Assembly (NCBI GenBank): GCA_017854535.1
Contig: JAFMHL010000016.1
Location: 1 to 64,000, forward strand
Source of the DNA: Nitratireductor sp.
GTDB taxonomy: Bacteria > Pseudomonadota > Alphaproteobacteria > Rhizobiales > Rhizobiaceae
DNA length: 64,000 bases
Reading direction: 5' to 3'
The notes beneath the pieces are model-generated. The model did not search any database. It saw only the letters and a list, made by a program, of their open reading frames with translations, and was not told the DNA's origin. The first letter of the stretch is position 1, and the number at the start of each line of letters is the position of its first letter. Of this stretch, positions 47,445-50,033 are shown one piece after another. A program made the position numbers and the translations under genes.

Positions 47445-48485
47445 TTAAGCTATTGCAGCCGAAGACTTTGCTTTGATTAATCCACGATTGACCAACAATT
47501 CAGCGATTTGAACGGTGTTAAGCGCAGCGCCTTTTCTTAGATTGTCAGATACGACCCAAATGTTAAGGCCATTATCCACTGTCGAATCTTCACGGATACG
47601 CGAAATATAAGTTGCGTCTTCTCCGGCGCAATCATGCGGTGTTATATAACCGCCATCTTCACGCTTATCGACTACGAGACATCCCGGCGCTTCGCGCAAA
47701 ATCGCCCGCGCTTCATCCGCAGAAATTTCGTTTTCAAACTCAATATTCACCGCTTCTGAGTGTCCGATAAACACAGGTACGCGCACAGCTGTGCAAGTCA
47801 CCTTGATGTTCTTATCAAGCATCTTTTTGGTTTCAGCGACAACTTTCCATTCTTCTTTGGTTGAGCCATCATCCATAAACACATCAATATGCGGGATCAC
47901 ATTAAAGGCGATACGCTTGGTGAATTTTTTCGGCGTCACATCGCCGTTTTGATAAACAGCTTTGGTTTGCTCAAAAAGCTCTTCCATCGCTTCCTTACCG
48001 CCACCTGAAACAGACTGGTATGTTGAAACAACAACCCGTTTGATTTTGGCATGGTCATGCAAAGGCTTCAAAGCTACAACCAATTGTGCAGTCGAGCAGT
48101 TTGGATTGGCGATGATGTTCTTCTTTGTATAGCCAACAACCGCATCAGCATTCACTTCAGGCACAATCAACGGCACATCAGGATCATAGCGAAACGCTGA
48201 TGAGTTATCGATAACAACGCAGCCTTGTTTGCCGATTTTTGGAGAATATTCCTTGGAAATTTCACCACCTGCAGACATGAGTGCAATATCTGTATCAGAA
48301 AAATCATAGCCTTCCAGCGTCTTGCACTTTAGCGTCTTGTCACCAAAAGAAACTTCCGTGCCCAAGCTTCGTCTTGATGCAAGCGGCACAACGGTATCAG
48401 CAGGAAATCCGCGTTCAGCAAGAATATCGAGCATTTCACGCCCAACATTGCCAGTGGCTCCAATGACAGCAATTTTATAACCCAT
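47445..48485 (-). CDS. asd: aspartate-semialdehyde dehydrogenase
   Basis: A 346-residue NADPH enzyme that reduces aspartyl phosphate to aspartate semialdehyde, the shared precursor of Lys (and diaminopimelate), Thr, Met and Ile. The Rossmann motif is IAVIGATGNVGREML near residue 5, the nucleophilic Cys is in IIANPNCSTAQLVVAL near residue 134, and VPVFIGHSEAVNIEFE holds the catalytic His. AAGGGG lies nine bases before the ATG. It is followed by a strong terminator. A possible leader peptide rich in Thr and Lys codons lies upstream (48631-48750). Confidence 0.95.
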   Translation of the reverse strand: MGYKIAVIGATGNVGREMLDILAERGFPADTVVPLASRRSLGTEVSFGDKTLKCKTLEGYDFSDTDIALMSAGGEISKEYSPKIGKQGCVVIDNSSAFRYDPDVPLIVPEVNADAVVGYTKKNIIANPNCSTAQLVVALKPLHDHAKIKRVVVSTYQSVSGGGKEAMEELFEQTKAVYQNGDVTPKKFTKRIAFNVIPHIDVFMDDGSTKEEWKVVAETKKMLDKNIKVTCTAVRVPVFIGHSEAVNIEFENEISADEARAILREAPGCLVVDKREDGGYITPHDCAGEDATYISRIREDSTVDNGLNIWVVSDNLRKGAALNTVQIAELLVNRGLIKAKSSAAIA

Positions 48486-48630
48486 GGTTTTTACCCCTTT
48501 TCAGGCTCCTGATATTTCGGCTTTTAATTATGACCGCCTCTTCCACAACTTAACGAAAATGACCTTCAAGGTTCATCTCCGTCTCTCTCTTCCTGTTGGC
48601 GCCAGGAAGAGGATCACGCAAACAGAAAGA
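48486..48630 (-). promoter_or_regulatory. putative asd leader with alternative hairpins
   Basis: On the minus strand segment B (48603-48612, CCTCTTCCTG) can pair with segment C (48587-48595, CAGGAAGAG) as a nine-base stem. It can also pair with segment D (48537-48544, GGAAGAGG) as an eight-base stem. The two are mutually exclusive. No U-run follows either, so control, if any, would be translational or Rho-dependent. Inference only. Confidence 0.4.
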
Positions 48631-48750
48631 TCAGACCGTTTTCTTGGTGGTCTTGGTCTTTGCAAAACGTGTTTTTGTTGCAGTATGTGAAGTTTCCGGA
48701 AGACACATGTCTGCGTTCATTTCGCTGATGCAAAATGCCCGCATTTCCAT
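48631..48750 (-). CDS. candidate 39-codon leader peptide upstream of asd
   Basis: A 39-codon frame ahead of asd, with ATGs at 48750, 48744 and 48720 in the same frame. Its last 20 codons contain 8 Thr and 5 Lys (TATKTRFAKTKTTKKTV at the end), and its first 15 hold four Met. The stop lies about 145 bases before the asd ATG, with two alternative hairpins between. No strong Shine-Dalgarno precedes the first ATG, although a GGAA lies right before the second. This is the shape of an amino-acid attenuation leader, but coding status is unproven. A 12-bp hairpin after leuB lies upstream. Confidence 0.4.
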   Translation of the reverse strand: MEMRAFCISEMNADMCLPETSHTATKTRFAKTKTTKKTV

Positions 48751-48920
48751 TGAAAGAGATACAAATCCCGACACAGTAATTTTCCTAGTTAATCCGCGCT
48801 TCTTAGCGGGTTTTAGGGCAGAGTCAAATAAGACTTTATTCTGTTAGCCAAACAGCGTGATTTTCTCAACTGAGGTTAGCATGGAGATGGATAGGAAAAA
48901 CGCCTATCCATCTCTATTGT
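48751..48920 (-). other. gap between leuB and the asd leader frame
   Basis: These 170 bases hold the leuB 3' hairpin and a TTGACT hexamer on the minus strand (48822-48827). No convincing -10 box is seen at normal spacing. A short CCGC/GCGG stem lies at 48794-48809. I see no further gene here. Confidence 0.5.
48884..48914 (-). terminator. strong hairpin after leuB
   Basis: A perfect 12-bp stem GAGATGGATAGG/CCTATCCATCTC with a seven-base loop starts seven bases past the leuB stop. There is no U-run after it on the minus strand, so it may stabilise the 3' end or act with Rho rather than being a classic terminator. Confidence 0.5.
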
Positions 48921-50033
48921 TTAGGCAGAAAGCGCTTTTAGTTCATCAAGAATGGCACCACCCATAGCTGTGGTGCCAACTTTTGTGCATCCATCACTCA
49001 TAATATCACCCGTGCGCAAACCGCGATCCAACACATTCGCTATCGATTTTTCAATCAGATCAGCCTCTTCAATCATATTGAAGGAATAGCGCAGGCACAT
49101 TGCAAAAGAGGCAATCATGGCGATCGGATTGGCAGCGCCTGTGCCAGCAATATCTGGAGCAGAACCATGAACAGGCTCATAAAGCGCTTTACGCTTTCCG
49201 GTAACGCCATCTGGCGCGCCCAAAGAAGCAGATGGCAGCATGCCTAATGACCCTGTGAGCATAGCCGCTACGTCTGAAAGCATATCCCCAAACAAGTTGT
49301 CAGTTACGATAACGTCAAACTGTTTAGGCCAACGCACCAATTGCATGCCGCCAGCATCGGCCAACATGTGAGACAATTCAACATCTGAGTAATTCGCTTT
49401 TTGAGTTGCCGTCACAACTTCATTCCACAAAACGCCTGACTTCATAACATTGCGCTTTTCCATGGAGCAAACTTTGTTTTGACGCGTGCGAGCCAATTCA
49501 AAAGCAACACCGGAAATACGTTCAATTTCATATGTATCATAGACTTGTGTATCGATGGCGCGTTTTTGGCCATTACCAAGATCGGTAATCGTTTTTGGCT
49601 CACCAAAATAAACACCACCAGTCAACTCACGAACAATCAGAATATCAAGACCCTCGACAACCTCTGCTTTCAGAGATGAAGACTGGGCCAGCGCTGGATA
49701 ACAAATTGCAGGGCGTAGATTTGCAAAGAGCTGCATATCTTTGCGAAGTCGCAAAAGGCCAGCTTCCGGGCGTTGCTCATAGGGAACATCATCCCATTTA
49801 GGTCCGCCAACCGCGCCAAACAAAACAGCATCCGCAGCCATTGCTTTTTCCATATCGCTATCAGATATCGCTTCGCCATGAGCATCATAGGCTGAGCCGC
49901 CAACCAGACCTTCGTCTGTTTCAAAGCAAGTCGACATTGTTTCATTCATCCATGCAATCAGCTTTCGAACTTCACCCATAGCCTCGGGACCAATGCCATC
50001 ACCTGGAAGCAGAAAAAGTTTGCGGATCGTCAT
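48921..50033 (-). CDS. leuB: 3-isopropylmalate dehydrogenase
   Basis: A 370-residue NAD-dependent enzyme that oxidatively decarboxylates 3-isopropylmalate in leucine synthesis. [21 protein letters not shown] is the N-terminal strand, [17 protein letters not shown] and [13 protein letters not shown] bind substrate, and the metal/NAD segment is [33 protein letters not shown], with the C-terminal [24 protein letters not shown] lies upstream of the ATG. leuD lies 1.2 kb away on the same strand, separated by a plus-strand M23 peptidase gene. leuA and leuC are not seen. Confidence 0.96.

Follow-up and report, generated by a model that had tools for sequence, protein, structure and literature searches.

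A threonine- and lysine-rich leader reading frame upstream of asd in Nitratireductor and related alphaproteobacteria: a probable ribosome-dependent attenuator with alternative RNA helices

The stretch of DNA analyzed here (hereinafter the window) comprises 64,000 nucleotides of Nitratireductor sp. contig JAFMHL010000016.1 and contains, immediately upstream of the asd gene, a short reading frame that ends in a run of threonine and lysine codons. This frame is a representative of a widespread Thr/Lys leader of asd, which was foreshadowed in print for Sinorhizobium (PMC10117765, in the excerpted text) but the conservation of which is far wider than published. Judging from the nucleotide sequences of this locus and its relatives, the leader is probably a ribosome-dependent attenuator that adjusts asd to the availability of threonyl- and lysyl-tRNA, and the architecture of its RNA seems to differ from that of the textbook attenuator. 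The initial annotation of the region had proposed that asd is preceded by an amino-acid leader with alternative hairpins, and this core reading is supported by the conservation of the frame and its codons, by covariation in swap tests, and by the presence of a TTGAC box upstream.

The product of aspartate-semialdehyde dehydrogenase (Asd) is a shared precursor from which Thr, Lys, Met and the diaminopimelate of the cell wall are all derived. If the interpretation is correct, sensing of two end products by a single leader would account for the way in which one shared enzyme answers to two branches, and what had been suggested in print for a small protein of Sinorhizobium would become a broad system amenable to testing in laboratory strains.

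The leader reading frame at the asd locus

The gene at 47445-48485 (minus strand, 346 aa), which has orthologues in the relatives and is the presumed controlled gene, is taken to be asd from knowledge of the family and from the initial annotation. Its Shine-Dalgarno site, AAGGGG (48494-48499, minus strand), is located 8 bases before ATG 48485. Between asd and leuB (48921-50033) lies a minus-strand frame with the stop codon TGA at 48633-48631. When initiated at ATG 48750, this frame (48631-48750) translates as the 39-codon peptide MEMRAFCISEMNADMCLPETSHTATKTRFAKTKTTKKTV, with 8 Thr and 5 Lys among the last 20 codons and 4 Met among the first 15; a recheck agrees with the initial annotation on these coordinates and counts, and on the pairings described below. 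The candidate regulatory Thr/Lys codons are the last 12 (48634-48669, minus strand, RFAKTKTTKKTV). A tail of this kind (Thr+Lys at 13 or more of the last 20 codons, Thr at no fewer than 6 and Lys at no fewer than 3) is found in only one of the 1,895 stop-to-stop frames of at least 20 codons on both strands of the whole window and is therefore beyond chance.

An alternative start of this frame is located farther 5', at GTG 48774 (48631-48774, minus strand, 47 aa), and is preceded, at a distance of 8 bases, by AGGA (48786-48783, minus strand), so that a Shine-Dalgarno site of the leader is possible; the initial annotation had seen no clear one before the frame and has to be amended on this point. 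Farther upstream is a promoter-like box, TTGACT-16 bases-TAAGAA (48800-48827, minus strand), with a weak second hexamer, from which the leader RNA would be expected to start near 48793. The pattern TTGAC[AT]-N15-19-TA, which was picked after examples had been seen, is present 5' of the leader in 19 of 46 loci, one of which is the window, with 0.71 expected from base shuffles. A stricter sigma-70 scan detects no promoter at the leader locus, the TTGACT-16-TAAGAA box being too weak for that scan.

Conservation of the leader and its precedent in Sinorhizobium

A strict rule was applied to the sequences upstream of asd, namely 6 or more Thr+Lys among the last 12 residues of the frame, with at least 3 Thr and at least 1 Lys. 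By this rule, 78 of the 80 named loci that are closest in terms of Asd similarity have a leader in front of asd (the best 80 of 574; one of these, L010, is a contig of the genus relative G006), so the conserved short frame with Thr/Lys codons that the initial annotation had proposed to look for in relatives is indeed there. The two remaining loci still end in KTKTTI and STKTPLI, and typical tails among the best 80 of 574 are KTKAKTTTKTV, ITAKTTIKTV and TTKTTKTTA. The leader is found in Rhizobium, Sinorhizobium, Agrobacterium, Mesorhizobium, Ochrobactrum, Roseibium and others. Among 100 further genomes of the order, sampled evenly from the 118 that have asd besides the window's own, 51, belonging to 22 of 45 families, carry a leader by the rule, and about half do not. 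Outside the order, a leader is found in 4 of 40 genomes from other orders of the class, one of the four (L196) being doubtful; these 40 were sampled from 102 genomes with a match, two of which (G000 and G045) belong to the order. Doubtful leader calls include L105, L126 and L133 along with L196, and locus L091 consists of 168 bases only. In the controls, the rule selects none of the 140 reverse complements and 3 of the 2,800 Markov shuffles. A chance frame in an ordinary 5' untranslated region would be in keeping with the short length of the frame and its unconserved first half, but is refuted by the conservation (78 of the best 80 loci and 51 of 100 order genomes, with 0 of 140 controls), which leaves it next to no probability.

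A profile built from 17 leader peptides, the window's own peptide being one of the 17 rows, has a sole match in the window's genome, namely the asd leader, with an E-value of 1.1e-9. Over 41 genomes, it yields a single match in each of 8; seven of these matches are directly 5' of asd, and next to the eighth (L237, E-value of 0.012) no asd start is recognized by text pattern. These counts do not amount to a full census because four genus relatives with very short leaders escaped detection by this profile.

A precedent for this leader exists in Sinorhizobium meliloti. According to the excerpted text of PMC10117765, the small protein SEP5 contains, toward its end, six Thr codons and three Lys codons and is encoded in the 5' UTR of a gene named aspartate dehydrogenase; its translation was seen by Ribo-seq and by Western blot, and a leader-peptide function was suggested for it, with conservation stated to be limited to Sinorhizobium. 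The leader at the Sinorhizobium locus L017 ends in KTTAKTTTKTV, i.e., six Thr and three Lys, and from the match of this tail to the excerpted description, we infer that SEP5 is the Sinorhizobium asd leader. So far as that text describes it, SEP5 resembles the window leader in its Thr/Lys-rich end and in its position directly upstream of asd; the difference is that SEP5 is called Sinorhizobium-only and is given no RNA structure (PMC10117765, same excerpts), whereas the leader described here occurs in 22 of the 45 sampled families and also outside the order, together with alternative helices. The initial annotation's statement that no asd leader of this kind was known in Hyphomicrobiales thus has to give way, since SEP5 had already been suggested to be one in the available portion of PMC10117765. 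In the open-licence literature, this is the only paper found, as far as the available portions of text go, to speak of such an asd leader; in the accessible part of the main text of a 2025 paper on attenuation in S. meliloti (PMC12218461), the word asd is absent.

The finding that SEP5 is translated, and that its tagged form is found in the soluble fraction (PMC10117765, excerpts), could also be taken to mean that the frame encodes a trans-acting small protein rather than a sensor. This is very improbable given that mainly the Thr/Lys tail is kept among the relatives, whereas the remainder varies in sequence and in length, down to 11 codons (MSIATKTKTGT). Leaders of this minimal size (MSIATKTKTGT, MSIALKTKTGI and MSIAPKTKTGT) occur in the window's own genus, which indicates that the conserved part of the leader is the tail.

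Codon composition

The codon composition was analyzed in 138 leaders, a set that may include near-duplicates. Thr and Lys together account for 80-93% at each codon from -2 to -7 (Thr for 78% at -2 and 80% at -5; Lys for 55% at -3), for less at codons -8 to -12, and for little farther upstream; given that these leaders were chosen by Thr/Lys in the last 12 codons, the enrichment there arises partly by construction, so that only the pattern within this segment and the fall beyond it are informative. The initial annotation had matched the codons of the frame to all three amino acid products of Asd. For Thr and Lys, the match is conserved in the relatives, whereas Met shows no enrichment, never exceeding 7% at a position within the last 24 codons in the 138 leaders, and is rejected as a leader signal. 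In a set of 49 leaders, all four Thr codons are used (ACC 142, ACG 86, ACA 18, ACT 15), and the mismatch at the first, second and third codon positions is 0.31, 0.54 and 0.66, respectively, the second value being raised by Thr-Lys exchanges. The alignment of the leader peptides contains no invariant column except for the start, and the first half is not conserved. The start codon with AGGA in the window and this codon-level variation would be compatible with translation of the leader.

Alternative helices downstream of the leader

Downstream of the leader stop codon, the order of elements is segment 2, segment B, segment C, a variable hairpin E, segment D and the asd start. Segment 2 (UCUUUCUGUU, 48630-48621, minus strand), which is absent from the initial annotation, is located directly 3' of the stop and can pair over 10 bases, including one G-U, with AACAGGAAGA (48597-48588), which overlaps segment C (AACAGGAAGAG, 48587-48597, minus strand). 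Segment B (UCCUCUUCCUG, 48603-48613, minus strand) can pair with C or with D (GGAAGAGG, 48537-48544, minus strand). In the window, the B:C helix consists of 9 pairs between CUCUUCCUG (48611-48603) and CAGGAAGAG (48595-48587), and the B:D helix of 8 pairs between CCUCUUCC (48612-48605) and GGAAGAGG (48544-48537), so the mutually exclusive pairings of B described in the initial annotation can both be read. B:C excludes both 2:C and B:D; since C can be taken by 2 or B, and B by C or D, the helices 2:C and B:D could coexist as crossing helices.

The helices were assessed with a swap test, in which a segment is paired with its own partner and with the partners from other species in diverse leaders. 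The set was defined by at least 5 Thr+Lys, with at least 2 Thr and at least 1 Lys, and a stop 65-130 bases before asd, which gives 136 leaders, thinned by similarity to 49, or to 45 in the tests that omit L105, L196, L133 and L140; the window, with its stop at -145, lies outside this set. With swap windows that were set after viewing the sequences, own partners fare better than swapped ones, the p-value for 2:C being 0.0002 in 45 leaders and 0.0002 in 49, and that for B:C 0.0002 and 0.0014, respectively. Own partners are also favored for B:D, with D sought 18-44 bases 5' of the asd ATG (the window's D is at 52-59); the p-value is 0.0004, 0.041, 0.0136 or 0.0002 depending on the choice of windows, and the own partner beats the mean swap in 30 of 49 leaders, in a comparison with a wide B window that extends into C. 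Of the three helices, B:D has the weakest and the least even support. In a looser swap test, 51 of 79 beat the median swap (p 0.0005). The covarying stems that had been proposed as a check are thus detected as lineage-to-lineage covariation of 2:C, B:C and B:D in the swap tests. In particular, two exclusive helices, 2:C and B:C, share segment C 3' of the Thr/Lys codons, both have a swap signal, and both can form in the window.

Among other combinations, hairpin E with the D region likewise favors own partners (p 0.0006), 1:C gives p 0.011, and 1:B gives p 0.083. The classical 1:2 pairing is flat in the swap test (p 0.77), and 2:D, B:SD, C:D, C:SD, and B or 2 with an unrelated stretch all have swap p-values of at least 0.14. 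For 2:SD, the permutation p-values are 0.014 and 0.018 with the same windows, 0.014 with one other choice, and 0.15, 0.24 and 0.46 with three more; the Wilcoxon p-value is 0.11.

RNAalifold runs on five lineage alignments predict 2:C-type hairpins in two groups and, in Rhizobiaceae, B:C plus B paired with the asd start region; B:D appears in none of these consensus structures. The Rhizobiaceae core is too uniform to read covariation, and its loci were picked for carrying the B motif. The sequence CGCTCTCTCCCCGG is carried by 48 of the best 80 named loci (L016-L089, Rhizobiaceae leaders); in 28 of these 48, the non-coding stretch GGAGAG in front of asd shows no variation at all, and AGAGAGC, which is complementary to GCTCTCT, is nearly invariant. 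An Rfam search of the window and of 10 of the 80 named loci yields no matches above the gathering threshold.

Possible mechanisms and access to the asd start

In the mechanism that we favor, when Thr and Lys are sufficient, the ribosome would reach the stop codon and cover segment 2, so that C would pair with B; the footprint of a ribosome positioned at a stop codon is expected to extend about 10 bases downstream. When Thr or Lys is short, the ribosome would stall on the Thr/Lys codons, and segment 2, being mostly free, would take C; B, thereby released, would pair with D, and the crossing 2:C and B:D helices would form a pseudoknot-like arrangement. The 2:C/B:D state is taken as the induced one, which would raise Asd, since expression of a biosynthetic gene would be expected to increase under shortage of its products. 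The effect is most likely exerted on initiation of asd translation, given the absence of a T-run terminator from the window and from nearly all of the relatives examined.

A hairpin with a T-run is found in 4 of 138 leaders (L079, L124, L132 and L228, of which L124 and L132 read alike), and a scan of the window detects no intrinsic terminator with a T-run on the leader strand, in agreement with the initial annotation, in which no U-run was seen after either hairpin. This rarity disfavors ordinary intrinsic termination and favors translational control or an unseen Rho-dependent step. The same counts bear on classical transcription attenuation, in which B:C would end transcription when Thr and Lys suffice and 2:C would prevent this. 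The order of the parts and the location of segment 2 under the terminating ribosome fit this scheme, as does L228 from another order (genome G154), with its Thr/Lys leader followed by a textbook T-run terminator, but with T-run hairpins in only 4 of 138 leaders and none on the leader strand in the window, such a mechanism appears unlikely, albeit worth serious consideration.

Predicted access to the asd start was compared in 49 leaders. The start opens more easily, by a mean of 0.67-0.97 kcal/mol (median 0.42-0.55), when 2 or B is masked, and less easily, by a mean of 0.71-0.97 kcal/mol (median 0.08-0.18), when C is masked, which indicates that 2 and B tend to oppose the asd start and C tends to free it; masking D has little and no clear effect. 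The asd start is more closed in 14 of 45 leaders when 2:C is forbidden and in 11 of 45 when B:C is forbidden (p 0.75), in a comparison where the segments were placed by an automatic rule and some are misplaced; with the crossing helices approximated, the corresponding numbers are 19 and 13 of 45 (p 0.22). The folding energies do not tell which of the two C helices is the ON state.

Access to the start is also central to an Erm/cat-like scheme, whereby a ribosome stalled on the last Thr/Lys codon would mask segment 2, allowing B:C to form and the asd start to open. Such stalling is in line with Thr at codon -2 in 78% of the 138 leaders, and moving the mask past the stop lowers the opening cost from 5.9 to 3.5 kcal/mol (61 leaders); however, this fall is partly trivial, as more sequence is removed, a ribosome stalled at -2 would cover no more than about 3-5 bases past the stop if the generally known footprint is assumed, and footprints at -12 to -5 shift the mean opening cost by at most 0.21 kcal/mol, with a shift of -0.51 at -2. 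We consider this scheme quite improbable. It shares the Thr/Lys sensor with transcription attenuation and with the favored mechanism; the three differ in output, and their odds overlap.

Several observations weigh against the crossing-helix mechanism itself: apart from the silence of the folding energies on the ON state, the p-value for B:D is as high as 0.041 and the helix is absent from the RNAalifold structures, 1:2 has no signal and the scheme does not account for the 1:C signal (p 0.011), masking of D has no clear effect, 2:SD depends on the windows chosen, and the leader is absent by the rule from about half of the order genomes. An order-wide RNA switch that senses two amino acids and sets translation of asd, a gene at the branch point of the Thr, Lys and Met pathway, via the crossing 2:C and B:D helices instead of a terminator, and that has a counterpart of the terminator type in one or more other orders of the alphaproteobacteria, is a tentative proposal, to which we would assign somewhat less than an even chance.

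Comparison with known leaders

In thrL and the other transcription-attenuation leaders of enteric bacteria, as in the asd leader, codons for the products of the pathway are located near the end of a short frame and are followed by exclusive helices. The asd leader is unlike these in that Thr and Lys are combined, the target is asd, T-run terminators are rare, and the freed segment B can pair with D, which is near the asd start in most relatives. With the Erm/cat attenuators, the asd leader probably shares the control of access to a downstream start by translation of the leader; it differs from them in that the signal would be amino acid supply, not an antibiotic, and in that anti-Shine-Dalgarno pairing is only weakly supported.

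Variant leaders and flanking elements

In the families f2, f16, f27, f28, f31, f32 and f46, none of the 2 to 4 genomes sampled from each has a leader by the rule, and asd may be controlled otherwise in these families. In the families f5, f13 and f18 (loci L144, L145, L171, L179, L184 and L187), there is an extra stretch between the Thr/Lys run and the stop, e.g., TTTAKRAVTTTGA. The 11-codon leaders of the window's genus (L002, L003 and L007) are located about 110 bases 5' of asd, with the ATG 12 bases after the TATCAA of a TTGACA/T-14-TATCAA box, so that the respective mRNAs are perhaps leaderless; the DNA farther upstream looks by eye like the end of another protein, not LeuB. In L228, the Thr/Lys leader (ATTKTATKTAGKTTGV) stops 140 bases before asd and is followed by a strong T-run terminator, which looks like the textbook transcription-attenuation version of the same control. 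Finally, just after leuB in the window (48884-48914), there is a perfect 12-base inverted repeat, GAGATGGATAGG/CCTATCCATCTC, with the loop CGTTTTT, which is possibly the end of the leuB transcript.
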